In this document: piece after piece, positions 1,983 to 11,005 of the stretch
How the letters are laid out: each line of letters starts with the position of its first letter
How positions within the stretch are numbered: position 1 is the first letter of the stretch
Source of the DNA: Polaromonas sp. UBA4122
GTDB taxonomy: Bacteria; Pseudomonadota; Gammaproteobacteria; Burkholderiales; Burkholderiaceae_C
Length of the DNA: 37,326 bases
Assembly: GCA_002381615.1 (NCBI GenBank)
Contig: DFWY01000104.1
Location: 23,608-60,933, forward strand
Direction of reading: 5' to 3'
The notes under the pieces: generated by a model
Database searches by the model: none
What the model was told of the DNA's origin: nothing
The model's input: the letters and a program-made list of their open reading frames with translations, nothing else
Position numbers and translations under genes: made by a program

Positions 1983-2591
1983 TTACTTGAGCAAGCCTTC
2001 TTCTTTCATGGCGGCCTGAACGGCGGGGCGGGCCGCCATGCGCTCGCGAAACGCCGCGAGGTGGGCAAAGCTGGAAATATCCATGCCCACATAAGGCGGC
2101 CAGTTGGTCACGGTAAAGAGGTAAGGGTCGGCCACGCTGAAGGCATCGCCCATCAGGTAGTGCTTGCCGGCCAGCTCGCCGTCCACCCACTGCAGGCGCG
2201 ACAGCAACCTGTCGATCACGATGGGCTTGTAGTCTGCGGGTGTGGCCGGGTTGAACAGTGGGCTGAAGCCCTTGTGCAGCTCGCTGCTGATGAAGTTGAG
2301 CCACGACTGCAATTGTGCGCGTGCGAGGGTGCCGTTGGCCGGTGCCAGCTTCTTGTCGGGCACCTGGTCGGCGATGTACTGCACGATGGCCGGGCCTTCC
2401 GTCAGGCGCGTGCCATCGTCCAGCTCCAGCAGGGGCACAGCGCCCAGCGGGTTGATGGTGTAGTAGTCGGTGCCGTCCAGCAGGCGGTGGGTTTTGGTGG
2501 ACGCTAAAACATGCTCGAACGCCAACCCTGACTCGTGCAGCGTGATGTGCGGAGACAGGGAGCAGGCGCCCGGGGAGTAGTAAAGCTTCAT
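1983..2591 (-). CDS. Glutathione S-transferase, beta class
   Basis: 202-aa cytosolic GST, conjugating glutathione to electrophiles or acting as a glutathione-dependent reductase. The N-terminal thioredoxin-like domain (1-80) starts MKLYYSPGACSLSPHI, with Cys10, the active-site cysteine typical of bacterial beta-class GSTs, and continues to NPLGAVPLLELDDG and the Ser/Thr-rich glutathione-binding TEGPAIVQYIAD. The all-alpha C-terminal domain carries GDAFSVADPYLF, the N-capping motif. Length matches GstA/GstB proteins. An AAGGA Shine-Dalgarno lies upstream of the ATG. Oriented like the neighbouring oxidoreductase 110 nt downstream, so the two could be co-transcribed. Confidence 0.93.
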   Translation of the reverse strand: MKLYYSPGACSLSPHITLHESGLAFEHVLASTKTHRLLDGTDYYTINPLGAVPLLELDDGTRLTEGPAIVQYIADQVPDKKLAPANGTLARAQLQSWLNFISSELHKGFSPLFNPATPADYKPIVIDRLLSRLQWVDGELAGKHYLMGDAFSVADPYLFTVTNWPPYVGMDISSFAHLAAFRERMAARPAVQAAMKEEGLLK

Positions 2592-2904
2592 GGGGTTGGT
2601 CCTTGTTTTTTTGGAGATGGGGGGATTGAAACAGCCCCCATGCTAGCTGCAAAGCAGGTTTTCTGATGCGCCGTGGGCGTGCCCCTCTCGGCAGGCGTCG
2701 CGCCCCATATGCCTGAACTCACGCTTTCGCCCAAATAATGGGCGTGGGTGGCTGCGGGCTTGTCCTACAGCGGCATGCGGGCGCTGCTGATTCTTTGGCG
2801 ACGCAGGCACTTTTATTATTGAGCGGTGGTGGTATGACTTTTCATGATTGGAGTTAGTGCTTTATTTTGCTTGGTGAGGCCTTGCATTGGCGAAGGAGAA
2901 CCTG
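2592..2904. other. Intergenic region between divergent genes
   Basis: 313 nt upstream of both the GST gene (minus) and the DUF1328 gene (plus), so it should hold both promoters. The only clear structure is CGCCCA (2728-2733) / TGGGCG (2739-2744) with a 5-nt loop and no T-run. I see no open reading frame of interest. Confidence 0.5.
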
Positions 2905-3090
2905 ATGCTCAAATACGCGATTTTTTTTACGGTGATTTCACTGATCGCTGGCGCCCTCGGTTTTGGGGGTGTGGCGGCAGGCGCTGCCGGCATTGCCAAG
3001 ATCCTGTTCGGCCTGTTCCTGATTCTGGCAGTTATTTTTGTGGTGTTGGCGGCCCTGGGTGTGGGCGCGGTGCAGAAGGTGATGAAATAA
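2905..3090 (+). CDS. DUF1328 (UPF0391) small membrane protein
   Basis: 61-aa hydrophobic protein, [20 protein letters not shown] followed by a glycine/alanine hinge ([16 protein letters not shown]) and a second hydrophobic helix, so two membrane spans. This is the pattern of the DUF1328/UPF0391 family, of unknown function, often seen among stress-induced genes of proteobacteria. The ATG at 2905 is chosen because AAGGAG sits at 2893-2898; a TTG six codons upstream lies inside that ribosome-binding site. The gene is alone, with no partner within 700 nt. Confidence 0.85.
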
Positions 3091-3849
3091 ATGAATCCTC
3101 CCGTTTCGGTGCCGCCAGGCACGGTGGTGTCCCGGCTCAAGGAACGGCTTCGTTATCCCTGCGCGCATACTGGGATTGACGTGGCAACAAGCCCGGCGAC
3201 AGCGGTAGTGCCATTGATGCCCGGACGTCAAACTGGCTTTCCGGCCAGCATTGCGGAATTTTTGCTTGTGTTCCGTTTGCGTGCGCGCCGCTCTTCGGCA
3301 AGTTCTACTGATGTGATGGCGCGCGCCGTTCGCATGGTCTTGGTGACCTGCCAACACTGGTTTGCCGCAGCGGACCGTCAGAAAACCGGTCCTCGCAGGC
3401 GTTGCTGATACTGGCCGCGTGATGGCGGTCTGGTTCTGTTTTTTTTCTTTACACCGGCGATCAATTTCATACACACTTCCCTTGTTGATTCCTTGCTGGA
3501 GTGCGAGGTCCGCAGCCCGTCAGTCGTTGTAGTGGAGCCATTAGTTGACGATAAACGGACGGCCCGTTGACGTGGTTTTGCTACGGGACGGCAAGTTTTT
3601 CACGTCGTGAGAGGACGGCTTAATTGGCGACTTGTTGGAATTTGACGCCGGGGCTTTGGAACCCGGCGCTTCAAGTCCGACAGATTTCTGGAGCCCTGCG
3701 GCTGTCGCATTTTGAGAATTTGCGGGCTGTTCTGCTGCTGTGTCAGGGTTTGTCCTAGGTGTGTTCTGGGGGCTGATTTCAATAATGGCTATGCAGCTTC
3801 ATTCATAGCAAGGCATTTCAGCGTTGCCGCTACCCAAGGAGACCCCCTC
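3091..3849. other. Long gap upstream of the aldehyde oxidoreductase operon
   Basis: 759 nt with no credible gene; the open frames on both strands have atypical composition and match nothing I recognise. Visible structure: a hairpin-like CCGGG...CCCGG around 3650-3670 and a GCTATG...CATAGC inverted repeat near 3788-3809 that may be a decayed dispersed repeat. The aor promoter and any aldehyde- or tungstate/molybdate-responsive site should lie here, but I could not recognise a defined operator, sigma-54 promoter or riboswitch. Confidence 0.4.
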
Positions 3850-4326
3850 ATGCAAAAGGTGTTGCACATCAACCCTGACAAATGCACTGGCTGTTTGCAG
3901 TGCGAGATGGCCTGTTCTTTTGAGAACTACGGCGTCTTCGCGACCGCCAAGTCGCGCATCAAGGTGTTCGACTTTCACGATACCGGCAAAAAGGTGCCCT
4001 ACACCTGCACCCAGTGCGATGAGGCCTGGTGCTTGCACGCCTGCCCGGTGGAGGCCATCACGGTGGACAAGCTCACGGGTGCGAAGGTGGTCAACGAAAC
4101 CACTTGCGTGGGTTGCAAGGTCTGCACCATCGCCTGCCCGTTCGGCACCATCAACTATGTGCAGGAAACCGGCAAGGTGCAAAAGTGCGACCTGTGCGGC
4201 GGTGAACCCGCCTGCACTGAGGCGTGCCCCACCCAGGCCATCACCTTCATTGACGCCAACTGGACCGGTCTGGGCAAGATGCAGCAATGGGCTGACAAGC
4301 TTGGCAACCAACCTTCGGCCGCTTAA
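3850..4326 (+). CDS. aorA: Aldehyde oxidoreductase, polyferredoxin electron-transfer subunit
   Basis: 158-aa 4Fe-4S protein that would carry electrons between the pterin subunit and the flavin subunit. Sixteen cysteines form four cluster-binding sets: CTGCLQCEMAC, CTQCDEAWCLHAC, CVGCKVCTIAC and CDLCGGEPACTEAC. This matches the small subunit of the Aromatoleum-type (AorABC) aldehyde oxidoreductases and related DMSO-reductase-type ferredoxins. The ATG at 3850 follows AAGGAG with 8-9 nt spacing; an upstream in-frame ATG at 3712 lacks such a site and adds non-ferredoxin sequence. Twelve nucleotides separate its stop from the catalytic gene, so the two are transcribed together. Confidence 0.9.
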   Translation: MQKVLHINPDKCTGCLQCEMACSFENYGVFATAKSRIKVFDFHDTGKKVPYTCTQCDEAWCLHACPVEAITVDKLTGAKVVNETTCVGCKVCTIACPFGTINYVQETGKVQKCDLCGGEPACTEACPTQAITFIDANWTGLGKMQQWADKLGNQPSAA

Positions 4327-4338
4327 GGAGTAACGAAT

Positions 4339-6186
4339 ATGTCTTGGGCAGGAAAAATTCTTCGCGTTGACTTGAGCACCGGAACCGTCAAGTCTGAACC
4401 CCTCAACATGGACTGGGCGCAGACCTATCTGGGCTCGCGTGGCCTGGGCAGCAAATACTTGGTGTCCGAAGTGGACCCCAAGGTGGACCCGCTGTCGCCT
4501 GGCAACAAAATCATCTGGGCCACCGGGCCGCTGACGGGCACTATGGCTTCCACCGGGGGCCGTTACACCGTCATCACCAAGAGCCCGCTGACCGGCGCCA
4601 TTGCCTGTTCGAATTCGGGCGGCTATTGGGGTGCCGAGCTCAAGATGGCAGGCTGGGACATGATCATTTTCGAGGGCAGGTCGGCCAAGCCGGTGTACCT
4701 TTATATCAACGACGACATGGCGGAGCTGCGCGACGCGGCTCACCTGTGGGGCAAGAGCGTCTGGCAGACCGAAGCCATGCTCAAAACAAGTCTGCAAGAT
4801 CCCTTGGTGCGCGTTTCGAGCATTGGCAAGGCGGGTGAAAACGGCGTGCTGTATGCTGCCGTGGTCAACGATCTGCATCGCGCCGCCGGCCGTTCGGGCG
4901 TGGGCACGGTGATGGGCGGCAAGAACCTCAAGGCGATTGCGGTGCGTGGCACAAAGGGCGTGGGCAATATTCGCGATCCCGAGGCCTTCATGAAGGTCAC
5001 CTACGAGAAGAAGAAGATCCTGCATGACAACGCCGTCACGGGCCAGGGCCTGCCGGCCTTTGGCACCCAGGTGCTGATGAATGTGATCAACGAAATAGGT
5101 GCGCTGCCCACCCGCAACCACCAGGATGTGCAGTTCGAGGGGGCCAAGGACATCTCGGCCGAAGCCATGGCCACGCCGCGCAAGACCGACGGCAAAAAGC
5201 AACTGGTCACCAACCAGGCCTGCTTTGGTTGCACCATCGCCTGCGGCCGCATCAGCAAGATGGACGCGGGTCACTTCACGGTGGCCAACAAGCCCCAGTA
5301 CTGGGGTGCATCAGGCGGGCTGGAGTACGAGGCCGCCTGGGCCTTGGGCGCAGCCAACGGCGTGAACGACCTGGAGGCGCTGCAGTACGCCACCTTGATT
5401 TGCAACGAGGAAGGCATTGACCCCATCAGCTTCGGCGCCACCATTGGCGCGGTGATGGAGATGTATGAAATGGGCGTGCTGACCAAGGAGCAGCTCGGTA
5501 TCGAGGCACCCTTTGGGTCGGCCAAGGCGCTGGCCTTCCTGGTTGAAGAAACCGTGAACAACCGCGGCTTTGGCAAGGAAATTGGCCAGGGGTCCAAGCG
5601 CCTGACGGCCAAGTACGGCCACCCTGATCTGTCCATGACGTCCAAGGGGCAGGAATTTCCGGCCTACGACGGGCGGGCCATCCAGGGCATCGGGTTGGCT
5701 TACGCCACGTCCAACCGGGGTGGCTGCCACCTGCGGGGCTACACCATTGCATCTGAAGTGCTGGGCATTCCGGTCAAGACCGATCCACTGGAGCATGAAG
5801 GCAAGCCCGAGTTGGTCAAGGCCTTCCAGGACGCCACGGCGGCGTTTGATTCGTCAGGCTTGTGCGTATTCACCACCTTCGCCTGGGGTCTGGCTGATTT
5901 GGCACCCCAGTTGCAGGCGGCCTGCGGCGAGCAGTACACGACCGAAGAACTGGAAAAAATCGGCGAACGCATCTGGAACATGGAGCGCGAATTCAACAAC
6001 GCGGCGGGTTTCACCAAGGCGGATGACTCGCTGCCCAAGCGCCTGCTGACCGAACCCGCCAAAACCGGCCCGGCCAAGGGCAAGGTCAACATGCTGGCCG
6101 AGATGCTGCCCAAATACTACGCCGCGCGCGGCTGGGACAGCGAAGGCGTTCCGACGACCGCGACCCGGCAGCGTCTGGGCCTATAA
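4339..6186 (+). CDS. aorB: Tungsten/molybdenum aldehyde:ferredoxin oxidoreductase, catalytic subunit
   Basis: 615-aa AOR-family enzyme oxidising aldehydes to carboxylic acids (reversibly, acids to aldehydes) at a bis-metallopterin W or Mo centre. N-terminal domain: GKILRVDLSTGTVKSEPL, then the pterin-binding region NSGGYWGAELKMAGWD and GRSGVGTVMGGKNLKAIAVRG. The [4Fe-4S] ligands are Cys295, Cys298 and Cys302 (CFGCTIAC) and Cys463 in SNRGGCHLRGY, the expected AOR arrangement. Length is typical. A GGAG site precedes the ATG. The FAD/NAD partner and MoaD gene downstream place it with the mesophilic multi-subunit NAD-linked AORs rather than archaeal single-subunit enzymes. Whether W or Mo is used cannot be read from sequence. 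Confidence 0.93.
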   Translation: MSWAGKILRVDLSTGTVKSEPLNMDWAQTYLGSRGLGSKYLVSEVDPKVDPLSPGNKIIWATGPLTGTMASTGGRYTVITKSPLTGAIACSNSGGYWGAELKMAGWDMIIFEGRSAKPVYLYINDDMAELRDAAHLWGKSVWQTEAMLKTSLQDPLVRVSSIGKAGENGVLYAAVVNDLHRAAGRSGVGTVMGGKNLKAIAVRGTKGVGNIRDPEAFMKVTYEKKKILHDNAVTGQGLPAFGTQVLMNVINEIGALPTRNHQDVQFEGAKDISAEAMATPRKTDGKKQLVTNQACFGCTIACGRISKMDAGHFTVANKPQYWGASGGLEYEAAWALGAANGVNDLEALQYATLICNEEGIDPISFGATIGAVMEMYEMGVLTKEQLGIEAPFGSAKALAFLVEETVNNRGFGKEIGQGSKRLTAKYGHPDLSMTSKGQEFPAYDGRAIQGIGLAYATSNRGGCHLRGYTIASEVLGIPVKTDPLEHEGKPELVKAFQDATAAFDSSGLCVFTTFAWGLADLAPQLQAACGEQYTTEELEKIGERIWNMEREFNNAAGFTKADDSLPKRLLTEPAKTGPAKGKVNMLAEMLPKYYAARGWDSEGVPTTATRQRLGL

Positions 6187-6210
6187 ACCGGCACGGTCCA
6201 TAAAAGGCTC

Positions 6211-6243
6211 GGGTGGGCACTGCTTGCAGGCCCACCCTTTTTT
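6211..6243 (+). terminator. Intrinsic terminator between aorB and aorC
   Basis: Stem GGGTGGGC (6211-6218) / GCCCACCC (6230-6237), with the loop itself pairing as CTGC-TT-GCAG around a single bulged A, followed at once by six T residues (6238-6243). It lies 25 nt after the aorB stop and 19 nt before the aorC start, inside what is otherwise one operon. Confidence 0.85.
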
Positions 6244-6262
6244 GATTTTGGAGAACAAGCTT

Positions 6263-7552
6263 ATGACCCACCACGTCATTCTGGGCGCAGGCCCTGCCGG
6301 TGTGATTGCCGCCGAAACCATTCGCAAACAGGCCCCGCACGACACCATCACGCTGGTCGGCGACGAAGCCGAGCCGCCTTACTCGCGCATGGCCATTCCC
6401 TACCTGTTGATGGGCAACATCGACGAGCGCGGCACCTACCTGCGGAAAAATCCGGCTCATTTCCGGGATTTGAAGGTTAATCAGATCCAGGCCCGCGTCA
6501 AGTCTGTGGATATTGCTCTCAAAAGCGTAGCGCTGGACAATGGCCAGGCCGTGCCTTATGACCGGCTGCTGATCGCCACCGGCTCGTGCCCCGTGCGCCC
6601 ACCGATTCCGGGCATGGACAGTGCTGGCGTATACCCCTGCTGGACCTTGCAGGATGCCCGTCACATCATGGCGCTGGCCCGGCCCGGCGCACGCGTGCTG
6701 CAGATGGGTGCGGGCTTTATCGGCTGCATCATCATGGAGGCGCTGATGCAGCGCGGCGTGCAGCTGAGCGTGGTCGAGATGGGCGACCGCATGGTGCCGC
6801 GCATGATGGGTGCTATGGCCGGCGGCATGATCCGCGACTGGTGCGAAACCCAGGGCGTGCAGGTCTTCATCGGCACCCGGGTTGAAGCCATTGAGCCCGG
6901 CACGCCTCTGAAGGTGCGCCTGTCCGGCGGGCAAACGGTGGAGGCTGATCTGGTCATCAGCGCCACCGGCGTCAAGCCCAACATCGGTTTTCTGGAACAT
7001 TCCGGCATCACCTGCCTGCAGGGTGTGCTGACCGACGAGCACCTGCAGACCAGTGTGCCGGGCATCTACGCGGCAGGCGATTGCGCCGAAGCCTTTGACA
7101 AAGTCAGCGGCAAGACCATCGTCAGCGCCATCCAGCCCAACGCGGCCGAGCAGGCCCGGGTGGCCGCGCTCAACATGGTCGGTCAACAGGTCGAACTCAA
7201 TGGCGTCACCCAGATCAACGTGCTGGACACGCTGGGCCTGATTTCCACCAGCTTTGGCAACTGGGAGGGCGTCCCCGGCGGTGAGCAGGTGGTGCTGACC
7301 GACCGCGGAGCCGATGGCGGAAAGGGCCGTCACCTGAGCCTGCAGTTCAAGGACGATGTGATGGTGGGCTGCAACAGCGTGGGCTGGACCGAGCATGTGG
7401 GCGTGATGCGCGGGCTGGTGGAGGGCGCCGTCCATCTCGGCCCCTGGAAGGAAGTTCTGAAACAAGACCCGACCAAACTGATGGAAGCCTATCTGGCCAG
7501 CGCCCAGGCGCAGGGCCAATGGAGCGGGGCAGCCGACGAGCGGCGGCGATGA
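6263..7552 (+). CDS. aorC: Aldehyde oxidoreductase, FAD/NAD(H)-binding subunit
   Basis: 429-aa pyridine nucleotide-disulfide oxidoreductase-fold protein, expected to pass electrons from the AorA ferredoxin chain to NAD+. The first Rossmann motif GAGPAG is at 8-13 (FAD), the second, GAGFIG, at 149-154 (NAD(H)), and the FAD-closing motif GIYAAGDCAEAF at about 267-278. No redox-active CxxxxC pair is seen, so it is not a disulfide reductase. The ATG at 6263 is preceded by GGAG; an upstream in-frame ATG at 6224 lies within the terminator hairpin. It overlaps the next gene by ATGA. It follows the intrinsic terminator, so expression depends on read-through or a separate promoter. Confidence 0.88.
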   Translation: MTHHVILGAGPAGVIAAETIRKQAPHDTITLVGDEAEPPYSRMAIPYLLMGNIDERGTYLRKNPAHFRDLKVNQIQARVKSVDIALKSVALDNGQAVPYDRLLIATGSCPVRPPIPGMDSAGVYPCWTLQDARHIMALARPGARVLQMGAGFIGCIIMEALMQRGVQLSVVEMGDRMVPRMMGAMAGGMIRDWCETQGVQVFIGTRVEAIEPGTPLKVRLSGGQTVEADLVISATGVKPNIGFLEHSGITCLQGVLTDEHLQTSVPGIYAAGDCAEAFDKVSGKTIVSAIQPNAAEQARVAALNMVGQQVELNGVTQINVLDTLGLISTSFGNWEGVPGGEQVVLTDRGADGGKGRHLSLQFKDDVMVGCNSVGWTEHVGVMRGLVEGAVHLGPWKEVLKQDPTKLMEAYLASAQAQGQWSGAADERRR

Positions 7553-7803
7553 AGATCACCTTCAAGCTGTTTGCCACGCTGACCGACTACCTGCCCGTGT
7601 CTGCGCGCCGCAGCAACATCGTCGAACTGGACGTGGCGCCTGACGCCGCCATCAGCCAGATCATCGAACCCTTTGGACTGCCGCCGAAACTGGTGCACCT
7701 GGTGCTGGTCAATGGCCGCTACATCGAGCCGGACCAGCGCCTGACCACCACCCTGAGCGAAGGCGACGTGCTGGCCATCTGGCCACCGATTGCTGGCGGC
7801 TGA
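7549..7803 (+). CDS. MoaD/ThiS-family sulfur carrier of the aor operon
   Basis: 84-aa ubiquitin-fold protein, MKITFKLFATLTDYLP at the N-terminus and GDVLAIWPPIAGG at the C-terminus. The terminal Gly-Gly is the adenylated/thiocarboxylated tail of MoaD-type carriers that donate sulfur during molybdopterin synthesis. The ATG overlaps the aorC stop (ATGA), so translation is coupled; a GTG 10 codons upstream would add aorC-antiparallel sequence. Its place in this operon suggests a dedicated carrier for the tungsto/molybdopterin of AorB, as in other aor operons (often called aorD). No MoaE partner is in the window, so it would have to use a shared one. Confidence 0.85.
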   Translation: MKITFKLFATLTDYLPVSARRSNIVELDVAPDAAISQIIEPFGLPPKLVHLVLVNGRYIEPDQRLTTTLSEGDVLAIWPPIAGG

Positions 7804-7814
7804 AGGGCCGGCTG

Positions 7815-8114
7815 ATGCAGTCCCACTACCTCGAACAGTTCGAGCGCGACATGGGCTGCACCGAAGTCGAGTGGCTGGGCTGGTTGCCGGCCGCGCTCGG
7901 GCAGCATCTTTGGCAGCGCGATGGCGCTTCGGTGCAGGTGTCGATCGGCCCTGGTAGCTTGCAGATTCACTGGCAGCAGGCTGAACCCCGCGTGCTGGGC
8001 CTGGCTCGCATTCCGCGCCTGCTGGTGCGCTTTGCCTTTGCCGGGCTGGACGATGCCCAGCGCTACGTCTTTATGAAGCGGTTTGACCTGTATATGCAGC
8101 GCGGTGGCGGCTGA
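7815..8114 (+). CDS. Uncharacterised small protein, fifth gene of the aor operon
   Basis: 99-aa protein I do not recognise. It is soluble (no membrane span or signal peptide), rich in aromatic residues (three Tyr, five Trp), with one cysteine (Cys15) and a strongly basic C-terminal half (RIPRLLVRFAFAGLDDAQRYVFMKRFDLYMQR). The gene begins 11 nt after the MoaD-like stop, reads in the operon direction, and the following gene is convergent, so it very likely belongs to aor expression. Possible roles are insertion or assembly of the metallopterin or iron-sulfur subunits; that rests on position alone. A clear Shine-Dalgarno is lacking, which fits translational coupling. Confidence 0.65.
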   Translation: MQSHYLEQFERDMGCTEVEWLGWLPAALGQHLWQRDGASVQVSIGPGSLQIHWQQAEPRVLGLARIPRLLVRFAFAGLDDAQRYVFMKRFDLYMQRGGG

Positions 8115-8240
8115 TTGTTGGCCCGAGTTGCCGGGTTGACTGGAATCTGATGCCCATTTCCCCCGCCCTTGATGCTGTTGGGCGTCTCCTGGGGTTAAAA
8201 ATGGGTCGTCTGCAGTGTGGCCCGGTTTTTAGAGGGGAAA

Positions 8241-8290
8241 GTGCTGCTAGCCCAATGAATACGGGCATAAAAGCTACAAAATACATAGCA
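8241..8290 (+). repeat. Dispersed two-hairpin repeat, copy 2
   Basis: GCTGCTAGCCC, then ACGGGCAT, then GCTACAAAATACATAGC. The GCCC/GGGC pair forms one hairpin and GCTA/TAGC the second. It lies between the convergent ends of the aor operon and the acyltransferase gene. Confidence 0.75.
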
Positions 8291-8314
8291 AGCAATGGCC
8301 TGTGCGGTCCGCTC

Positions 8315-11005
8315 TCACAGGGCGTGCGTCACCAGTTTGAAATCCGGGTCTTCGGCAAAAGGCTTGACGGCAAAGCCCAGACCTTTCATGAGCTTGAGCA
8401 TGCTGGGGTTGTTGGCCAGCACCAGACCGTCGATTTCAGTTAGCCCCTTGTCGCGAGCCACATCCATGATGCTTTGCATCAGGCGCGAGCCCAGGCCCTT
8501 GCTGTTGAAGTCGTCGGCCACCACCAGCGCGAACTCGCAGCTGGACTGGTCAGGGTTGGTGATGTAGCGTGACACGCCGACGATGCGCTCGGTCTCGAGG
8601 ATCTCGCCCTTTGGCCCGGCTCGGCGCTCCTTGAACACGGCCACCAGCGCCATTTCGCGGTCGTAGTCGATCAGCGTGAAACGTGCCAGCATGGACGGCG
8701 GCAGCTCGACCATGGATGAGATGAAACGGAAATAGCGGCTTTCGGGCGAGAGGTGCTGCATCAGGTCCTGCAGCATCTGCGCATCGTCCGGGTGGATGGG
8801 GCGCACGGTGTACTCGCCGCCGCCGCGCAGCGGCCACAGCTGTTCGTAGCGCGCCGGGTAAGGCAGGATGGCCAGGTGGTTGTAGTTGTTGGCGCGGCCG
8901 CTCATGGCTTGCGGCGCGTGGTCGATGATGATGCGCGCGTCCACCGCCACGGCACCTGACTCGTCGACGATGATGGGGTTAATGTCCATCTCGCGCAACT
9001 GGGGCAGCTCGCACACCATTTCCGAGACGCGCAGCAATATCTGCTCCAGCGCGTCCATGTTGACCGCGCTGGCGCCGCGCCACTCGCCCAGCGTCTCCGC
9101 CACGCGCGAACGTTCGATCAGGCGGCGCGCCAGAAACTGGTTGAGCGGCGGCAGCTCCATGGCGCGGTCGTTGATGAGTTCGATCATGGTGCCGCCAGCG
9201 CCGAAGGCAATTACCGGGCCGAAGGGGTCGTCGGTGACAAGCCCTACGCAGACCTCGCGGCCGCGCCGGGCGCGCGCCATGTTCTGCACGGTCACGCCGT
9301 TGATGCGCGCGTTGGGTTGCAGGCGCGCCACGGCTTGCATCATGTCGTTGTAGGTGTCACGCGCGCCGGTGGCGTTCATGATGTTGAGCGCCACGCCTTC
9401 CACGTCCGACTTGTGGCTGATGTCGGGTGAGTCGATCTTGAGTGCCACCGGAAAGCCCAGTTGCGTGGCGATCATCATGGCCTCGTTGGCGCTGCGCGCC
9501 AGGATGGTTTTGGTGACGGGAATGTGGAAGGACGAAAGCAGGGTCTTGGACTCCATCTCGGTCAGCACCTTGCGGCGCTCGGCCAGCACATTTTCGATAA
9601 TCAGTCGCGCGCCCTCGATGTCGGGCTTGGCCAGCATGGACAGGGGCGGTGGGGTTTGCTGGAGCAACTGCTGGTTTTGATAGAACGAGGCGATGTTGCC
9701 GAAGGCGCCTACGGCCGCCTCGGGCGTGCGGAAACTGGGAATGGCCGCCGCTTTGAGAAGGCCGCGTGCCGCAACCACTGCGGTATCACCCATCCAGCAC
9801 GCCAGCAGCGGCTTGCCCATGCTGCGCTTGACCTCGACCAGCGCGCGCGCCACCTCCGAGGCGTCGGCGCCGGCTTTGGGTGAATAGATGGCCAGCACGC
9901 CGTCAATCTGGCGGTCCTTGCCTGCTGCTTCAATCGCCGCCCGGTAGTGCTCGGGGCTGGCGTCTTCCGACAGGTCGATCAGATCCGACAGCGACGCGAA
10001 GTCAGGCAACTGCGGCTTGAGGGCGCTGACAGACTCGGGCGAGAGCTTGCCCAGCTGCAAGAAAATTTCATTGACCCAGTCAGCCGCCAGCACGCCGGGC
10101 CCGCCGCCGTTGGTGACGATGGCCAGGCGCCGACCCACCGGGCGGTAGCGTGAGGCCAGGCACTTGGCCGCCGAGAACAGTTCCACGAACGAGCGCACCC
10201 GCACCGCGCCGGCACGGCGCAGGGCGGCGTCAAACACATCGTCGCTGCCGACGATGGCGCCGCTGTGGGTCTGCGCCGCCTCGTTGCCAGCCGGTTTGCG
10301 ACCGGCCTTGAGCACCACCACCGGCTTGGCACTGGCAGCCGTACGCAGCGCGCTCATGAAGCGGCGCGCGCTGGAGATGCCCTCCAGATAAATGACGATG
10401 CTGTGGGTTTGCTGATCGTTGGCCAGGTAATCCAGCACCTGGGCAATGTCCACCGAGGTATTGGGTCCCAGGGAAATGACCGAAGAAAAGCCCACCGCGT
10501 TGCTGTTGGCCCAGTCGAGCATGGAGGCGGTCAGCGCACCCGACTGCGACACCAGCGCGAGAGAGCCGGCCTTGGCCAGCGGTCCAGCCGCGCTGGCATT
10601 GAGCTGCAGTTGCGGACGCTGGAAACCCATGCCATTGGGGCCGAGCAGGTACATGCCTTCGCGGCGCGCAATTTTCTTGAGCTCGTCGGCCTTGTCGGCG
10701 CTGATGCCGCTGGAGATCACCAGCGCCGCGCGGCAGGCCATGCGGCCGGCAATCTCCAGCGCGGCGGTCACGTCCTGCGGCGGCAGCGCAATGATGGCCA
10801 GATCCGCCCGCGTTTGCGCCAGGTCCGCCAGCGTGCCACTGGTGTGGATGTCCAGAAACACCAGGGTGCCGCTGTAGCGCTGGGCACGCAGGGCCTCGTG
10901 CAAGGCCTTGGCGTGCGTGGTCTGCGTGGCCGGATCGTCGGCCTGGCCGGCGAAGACAACGATGGATTCAGGCGAGAAAAGCGGAGTGAGGTAGTGTTTG
11001 TCCAT
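8315..11005 (-). CDS. PatZ-type protein lysine acyltransferase (ADP-forming acyl-CoA synthetase fused to GNAT)
   Basis: 896-aa fusion protein. Residues ~1-130 form a CoA-binding Rossmann domain (LLGPNGMGF). Residues ~140-470 are succinyl-CoA-ligase-like (LVSQSGALTASMLDW; QTHSGAIVG with His247). Residues ~480-710 are an ATP-grasp domain (GFPVALKIDSPDISHKSD, VIAFGAGGTMIELI, REMDINPIIVD). Residues ~725-896 are a GNAT domain (YTVRPIHPDDAQ, KGLGSRLMQSIMDVA). Family members acetylate lysines, for example of acetyl-CoA synthetase, and so adjust acetate metabolism. His247 sits where ADP-forming synthetases carry the phospho-histidine, so the synthetase half may still be active. Monocistronic. The ATG at 11005 has a GGAA-type site upstream. 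Confidence 0.9.
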   Translation of the reverse strand: MDKHYLTPLFSPESIVVFAGQADDPATQTTHAKALHEALRAQRYSGTLVFLDIHTSGTLADLAQTRADLAIIALPPQDVTAALEIAGRMACRAALVISSGISADKADELKKIARREGMYLLGPNGMGFQRPQLQLNASAAGPLAKAGSLALVSQSGALTASMLDWANSNAVGFSSVISLGPNTSVDIAQVLDYLANDQQTHSIVIYLEGISSARRFMSALRTAASAKPVVVLKAGRKPAGNEAAQTHSGAIVGSDDVFDAALRRAGAVRVRSFVELFSAAKCLASRYRPVGRRLAIVTNGGGPGVLAADWVNEIFLQLGKLSPESVSALKPQLPDFASLSDLIDLSEDASPEHYRAAIEAAGKDRQIDGVLAIYSPKAGADASEVARALVEVKRSMGKPLLACWMGDTAVVAARGLLKAAAIPSFRTPEAAVGAFGNIASFYQNQQLLQQTPPPLSMLAKPDIEGARLIIENVLAERRKVLTEMESKTLLSSFHIPVTKTILARSANEAMMIATQLGFPVALKIDSPDISHKSDVEGVALNIMNATGARDTYNDMMQAVARLQPNARINGVTVQNMARARRGREVCVGLVTDDPFGPVIAFGAGGTMIELINDRAMELPPLNQFLARRLIERSRVAETLGEWRGASAVNMDALEQILLRVSEMVCELPQLREMDINPIIVDESGAVAVDARIIIDHAPQAMSGRANNYNHLAILPYPARYEQLWPLRGGGEYTVRPIHPDDAQMLQDLMQHLSPESRYFRFISSMVELPPSMLARFTLIDYDREMALVAVFKERRAGPKGEILETERIVGVSRYITNPDQSSCEFALVVADDFNSKGLGSRLMQSIMDVARDKGLTEIDGLVLANNPSMLKLMKGLGFAVKPFAEDPDFKLVTHAL

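Follow-up and report, generated by a model that had tools for sequence, protein, structure and literature searches.

How a single operon yields its subunits in unequal amounts is a general question in bacteria. Among the closest described devices are the internal terminators of Clostridial ABC-importer operons, which set subunit ratios with efficiencies of 20.7-96.1% (PMC9045158). The two tested terminators of this set with the fullest U-runs, classed as Type I, work at above 90% (PMC9045158). Cellulosome ratios in Clostridium are set by processing and stabilizing hairpins (SRPS) in the cip-cel operon, which are stem-loops located 3' of a gene that is needed in excess within a multi-subunit complex; 28 of the 33 stem-loops lack a U-run and lie at mapped processing sites, and 5 of the 33 have one (PMC4423207).

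Filamentous redox enzymes present a clear case of the same question: the number of cap subunits should set both the number of filaments and their mean length. The one characterized class III enzyme (class III WOR) is that of Aromatoleum (PMC13328260). Its purified complex contains 2-4 AorAB per AorC, and the C-terminal helix of AorA is needed for filaments, as established by deletion (PMC10413684). The available parts of PMC10413684 and PMC13328260 describe no expression mechanism for AorABC, and the main text of PMC9765128 gives no proteomic subunit ratios at the two relevant places.

The aor operon and its internal hairpin

The window, that is, the whole 37,326-nt stretch of Polaromonas sp. 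UBA4122 DNA that was analyzed, carries homologues of AorA, AorB, and AorC in that order, with the C-terminal helix present in the predicted AorA, as in the class III filament enzyme. The gene order, the three homologous subunits and the conserved filament helix are all shared with Aromatoleum aromaticum. A MoaD/ThiS-like gene and a probable aorE complete the cluster (Table 1); the latter has tblastn matches in 139 of the 236 loci surveyed below, many of which are too short to contain it.

Table 1. Positions of the aor genes and of the elements at the aorB-aorC junction (numbering of the window)
Feature	Positions	Strand	Evidence
aorA, four-[4Fe-4S] subunit with C-terminal filament helix	3850..4326	+	Fer4 domains (longer ORF); 8c0z_C match over residues 1-157; ATG 3850 chosen as start, preceded by AAGGAG
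aorB, tungsten catalytic subunit, 615 aa	4339..6186	+	AFOR_N E 2.3e-81, AFOR_C E 1.1e-135
Stem-loop (8-bp stem, bulged A6219, inner CTG(C)/(G)CAG)	6211..6237	+	sequence, fold, d score
T6, U-run of the putative terminator	6238..6243	+	sequence
GGAGA, aorC Shine-Dalgarno	6250..6254	+	sequence; anti-Shine-Dalgarno energies
aorC, FAD/NAD-binding cap subunit, 429 aa	6263..7552	+	Pyr_redox_2 E 8.1e-54; 8c0z_E E 3.6e-151
aorD, MoaD/ThiS-like	7549..7803	+	Ub-Mut7C, ThiS (longer ORF); ATGA overlap with aorC
Probable aorE, last cluster gene	7815..8114	+	tblastn matches; without Pfam or NCBIfam match

The gap between aorB and aorC is 76 nt long, and the hairpin begins 24 nt 3' of the aorB stop. Its outer part is an 8-bp GC stem, in which GGGTGGGC (6211-6218) is perfectly complementary to GCCCACCC (6230-6237) on the + strand. 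A6219 is bulged, and the enclosed letters, CTGCTTGCAG (6220-6229), contain the inner CTGC/GCAG. The T6 tract lies directly 3' of the stem and is separated from the aorC ATG by the 19 nt of GATTTTGGAGAACAAGCTT, within which the aorC Shine-Dalgarno (SD) sequence GGAGA begins 6 nt past the U-run.

The initial annotation had reported a hairpin at 6211-6243, at the aorB/aorC boundary, and both sequence and fold bear out its coordinates and description. One detail of that description needs adjustment: the letters of the inner CTGC/GCAG pairing are present, but the minimum-energy fold has 3 bp closing a CUUG tetraloop rather than 4, since adding a fourth pair, C-G, would shrink the loop to two bases. 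The folding energy of the surrounding 71 nt is by itself ordinary (z -1.36; 16 of 200 shuffles equally good). Scored jointly, stem and U-run reach d = 42.4 (-20.1 kcal/mol), compared with 2.1 for the best of 30 dinucleotide shuffles; d was computed with the d'Aubenton-Carafa formula and a zero threshold. No other site on either strand of the whole window scores as high: 14 in all have d > 0, and the runner-up has 29.8. The hairpin is absent from the output of a general terminator scan, which admits loops of 3-8 only.

The junction has what is expected of an intrinsic terminator, namely a GC-rich stem of at least about 5 bp with a U-run immediately after it, and its site between co-directional genes of one complex is that of a stoichiometry terminator. 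A stem-loop at the 3' end of the upstream gene is also what characterizes an SRPS hairpin.

Recurrence at the aorB-aorC junction in relatives

An aorC match at E 1e-60 was found in 17 of 87 genomes of the genus and in 112 of 399 sampled genomes of the family. Some genomes of the genus share their junction with named Polaromonas records, L006 and L051 being an example. Family aorC stretches came from 107 of these 112, with G254, G295, G332, G343, and G419 left out along with second copies that are 45-47% identical. The first set held 240 sequences, in which 233 aorB-aorC junctions were read; seven were set aside, namely L002-L005, which are weak matches to other proteins, L022 and L156, in which the AorC N-terminus is missing, and L239, which lacks aorB. 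The second set consisted of the best 30 of 76 matches in the family of an aorC-bearing genome from the same taxonomic order, and all 30 junctions were read. Together the 263 junctions merge into 236 distinct contexts, the window and L001 being the same junction; the junctions of L273 and L275 stand outside the counts. aorC follows aorB in all 263, a set that loci without both genes could not enter. Premature stops inside some AorC matches were considered and rejected, all six that were checked being ordinary gene ends. Control gaps were defined by our own ORF rule, not by annotation; the rule found 49 of the target junctions among 270 gaps, and three target distances in the control-gap set (105, 334, and 390) look like wrong start choices.

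A hairpin with a U-run at d > 0 is present in 106 of the 236 distinct junctions, while 84 have a gap of at least 40 nt without a scoring terminator and 46 have a gap of less than 40 nt. The first set contributes 209 distinct junctions, of which 101 score, compared with a shuffle mean of 2.4. Grouping by similarity of the 190 gaps that reach 40 nt gives 140 groups, in 73 of which the first member scores. When only gaps of 40-120 nt are compared, a scoring terminator occurs at 20 of 32 aorB-aorC junctions and in 1 of 58 other same-strand gaps from the same loci; at 40-200 nt, 7 of 90 control gaps score. By the measure of both shuffles and other gaps, recurrence at this position is beyond chance, though no scoring terminator is seen in 130 of the 236 junctions. 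In 86 of the 106 that score, 15-30 nt separate the end of the stem from the aorC start, a near-fixed distance that therefore places the U-run immediately 5' of the ribosome site, which is also the arrangement in the window. Median gaps are 81 nt for aorB-aorC (n=236), 23 nt for aorA-aorB (53 loci), and 12 nt for aorC-aorD (158 loci).

Conservation in relatives had been proposed as a check on the element. A hairpin with a U-run does occupy the same place in 10 of the 17 aorC genomes of the genus (among the other seven, the gap is long without one in 6 and short in 1) as well as in many further genera, but its sequence is not kept. Among the 30 loci of the Aromatoleum-type family 7 score as terminators, a count that leans Aromatoleum-like because the other 46 of the 76 matches were left out (3 of those genomes were already in the sample).

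What the junctions share most widely is a strong stem-loop 3' of aorB, which takes the form of a canonical terminator in somewhat less than half of them. Terminator-less long gaps have hairpins that beat all 25 of their own shuffles in 44 of 84 cases, terminator junctions in 45 of 106, and control gaps in 16 of 90. For the 50 named-locus junctions with gaps of 40-200 nt, z-scores differ from those of the controls at p = 1.3e-6, a value that is not a strict probability, the sequences being related.

Turnover of the hairpin sequence

Judged by eye, the hairpins of different clades are unlike one another (GGGTGGGC...GCCCACCC, AGCGGTCC...GGCCGCT, GGGGGCAGT...CTGCCCCC, and AAGGCGGT...ACCGCCTT). A tree built from AorB and AorC requires at least 42 changes of terminator state, compared with a mean of 78 for shuffled labels; the state is inherited, yet quickly gained and lost. 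Eight related hairpins keep 94.8% of their pairs, versus 35-52% with the partner slid, and the changes are mostly wobble changes; double-sided covariation is seen in 1 pair only of these eight hairpins, which 70 of 500 shuffles equal. Place and structure are kept while the letters drift, and covariation proper is weak.

Several individual junctions have features of their own. That of L013, from a genome of the same genus (and the same junction as L055), includes a 5' arm-like GGGATGGGGG and CTGC..GCAG without a matching 3' arm and without a T-run, and looks like a decayed terminator. Junctions of the Limnohabitans type (L070, L076, L083-L085, L087, L088, and L100) contain, beside the aorC-proximal hairpin, an extra inverted repeat with CTGTAGGAGCG, which we take to resemble REP elements. 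A different inserted repeat, with GGGGTCGGATCACCG, is found in the gaps of L115, L122, and L129.

Shine-Dalgarno strength of aorC

The SD of aorC, evaluated by its pairing with the anti-SD letters, has a median energy of -6.4 kcal/mol in the 106 loci with a terminator, -5.9 in the 84 other long gaps, and -4.05 in the 46 short gaps. No such trend across terminator states is seen for the SDs of aorA and aorB (up to 53 loci), and aorD, which is mostly closely spaced, has weak SDs in every state. Phylogenetically independent pairs of terminator and short-gap loci give a median p of 0.02 (n=18, range 0.002-0.23); pairs of terminator loci and all others give a weaker result (n=28, median p 0.08). 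Broken down by distance, the short-gap SDs stand at -3.8 for -4 to 4 nt (20 loci), -5.4 for 5-11 nt (13 loci), and -4.2 for 12-39 nt (13 loci), so overlap with aorB accounts for only part of the effect. The weak SDs of short-gap genes may have other causes. As a lead only, the strong GGAGA would partly repay, in translation, the transcripts lost to termination.

Comparison with Aromatoleum and with Azospirillum plasmids

The initial annotation had also drawn a parallel with the many AorAB protomers per AorC of the Aromatoleum enzyme. In favor of the parallel, the C-terminal filament helix of AorA is conserved. That said, the genome whose AorC is identical to A. aromaticum chain 8c0z_E over 209 residues has a 114-nt gap with a strong hairpin of -36.4 kcal/mol and no U-run. 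The junction thus differs from that of the window, and because of it the inference from Aromatoleum is indirect and the parallel looser than had been assumed.

The AorA helix is kept in all 53 tails that were read from the window and the named loci: 30 with a terminator, 13 with long gaps lacking one, and 10 with short gaps. The terminator is therefore not required for the filament, the helix being kept in 23 of 23 readable terminator-less loci. A link between terminator state and loss of the helix was rejected; with the helix in every tail, the set cannot test the stoichiometry idea.

A plasmid search aimed at class III and class IV enzymes from other phyla yielded five AorAB-MoaD-Nuo-like clusters of Azospirillum (L281, L282, L287, L288, and L289). 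Downstream of their AorA-AorB homologues (AorB about 51% identity), these clusters have a MoaD-like gene together with NADH-quinone-oxidoreductase-like subunits in place of aorC, and they perhaps encode a membrane-linked tungsten aldehyde oxidoreductase. A strong stem-loop without a U-run follows aorB in 5 of 5 loci, and 0, 1, 1, 2, and 0 of 50 shuffles per locus fold as well. These hairpins would fit a device at the boundary between protomer and exit module, five loci from one genus being few. No class IV operon was found on plasmids in the stretches of the seven records examined, among 40 listed of 81 matching.

A proposed mechanism and its alternatives

Of the readings considered, the best takes the element for an intrinsic (Rho-independent) terminator internal to the aorABCDE operon; we give this reading a probability of about two in three. 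Anatomy, position, and enrichment over shuffles and other gaps speak for it, though the U-run-less hairpin of the Aromatoleum-like genome has loosened one of the inferences first attached to it. According to this model, polymerase would transcribe aorA and aorB, and the GC hairpin would form from 24 nt past the aorB stop. At U6 a fraction of the complexes would dissociate, leaving an aorAB mRNA with the hairpin as its 3' cap, and the remaining complexes would read through into aorC, aorD, and aorE, which are presumably co-transcribed with aorAB. The outcome would be an excess of AorAB protomers over AorC caps and MoaD-like maturation proteins, a ratio on which selection may act. The 19 nt between U-run and aorC are too few for a promoter, so the aorC promoter should lie upstream of the hairpin and aorC transcripts would have to pass through it; if the hairpin terminates at all, aorAB would therefore exceed aorC-E in new RNA from the operon promoter. 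Comparative support and published precedents make this stoichiometry model plausible.

The Clostridial ABC-importer terminators are similar in being GC stem-loops with U-rich tails between genes of the same operon, where the upstream product is needed in excess (PMC9045158). Partial termination was demonstrated there by Northern blot and reporters (PMC9045158), whereas for the aor junction it is predicted from sequence. The full T6 tail of the aor element has its like only in the minority Type I of the Clostridial set (PMC9045158), and in the aor operon the downstream gene encodes the one cap subunit of a redox filament. By the Type I yardstick, taken as it is from another phylum, the terminator of the window could be strong; its U6 tail and long stem could stop most polymerases, as against the published 2-4 AorAB per AorC. 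The kind of device is already known, and this member is new as far as our literature search reached, no description of this aor element in print having been found among the matches listed. At 33 nt, and open to disruption or tuning, the element would link RNA ends, subunit ratio, and filament length in a testable way, and it would guide expression constructs for tungsten enzymes used in acid reduction and NADH recycling.

The same ratio could arise from RNA stability, if the operon mRNA were cut between aorB and aorC and the hairpin shielded the aorAB 3' end from exonucleases, with the U-run helpful and not essential. We consider this SRPS-like account unlikely, though it gains from the terminator-less long gaps, which are as hairpin-rich as the terminator junctions, from the strong stems without U-runs at Aromatoleum-type and Azospirillum aorB junctions, and from the cellulosome precedent. 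Most cip-cel hairpins lack the U-run and sit at mapped cleavage sites (PMC4423207), whereas the aor hairpin has its U6 exactly where a terminator needs it; the near-fixed distance from aorC in 86 of the 106 scoring junctions likewise argues for termination. A role in translation is improbable: here the hairpin and the AU-rich stretch would hold the aorC ribosome site accessible and deliver ribosomes to it, as an S1-binding U-rich leader, thereby raising AorC. At -28 to -13 of aorC the T content falls from 0.46 in terminator loci to 0.28 in the remaining long gaps and 0.16 in short gaps, and the U-run stands 6 nt before the SD, but such T richness is expected from the U-run itself and so is not independent evidence. 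Nor does a leader of this kind explain the GC stem directly before the U-run, or the rarity of the stem and U-run pair in comparable gaps (1 of 58).

Most improbable of all, in our estimate, is that aorC-E constitute a unit of their own, the hairpin being either a usual gene-end terminator or an incidental product of inverted repeats in intergenic DNA. The frequent turnover of terminator state on the tree and the inserted repeats in the gaps of some relatives would suit such an origin; the absence of promoter space between U-run and aorC, the enrichment over other gaps of the same loci, and the unbroken succession of aorB and aorC (in a set confined to loci with both genes) all stand against it.

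Beyond the terminator reading for the window itself, it is possible, if doubtful, that hairpins 3' of aorAB have arisen again and again as a means of setting subunit ratios in redox-nanowire enzymes. Cap output would then be kept low by different means, with a terminator accompanied by a strong aorC SD in some loci and a weak SD in a short gap in others, and the same type of hairpin, without a U-run, would serve after aorB in the Azospirillum plasmids.

Surroundings of the operon

A scan of the sigma-70 type only, over 2000-11000, returned no sigma-70-like promoter (1.7 expected by chance), and no Rfam family (riboswitch, attenuator) matched the window above its gathering score. A dispersed-repeat origin of the hairpin was rejected, its pattern being single-copy in the genome with up to 3 mismatches allowed. 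The second-best terminator-like site of the window (29.8) is at 3407-3436 on the + strand, followed by TG and T8, about 410 nt 5' of the aorA start. Between aorE and the convergent ORF at 8315 (8115-8314) there is no site with d > 0, and the internal hairpin scores above anything at the end of the aor operon. Elsewhere in the host genome, with no aorA- or aorC-like gene among the 4 other ORFs beside it (7 kb, Pfam scan), there is a second AFOR-type gene (C72:2091-3917, - strand, L285) that is 57% identical to AorB.
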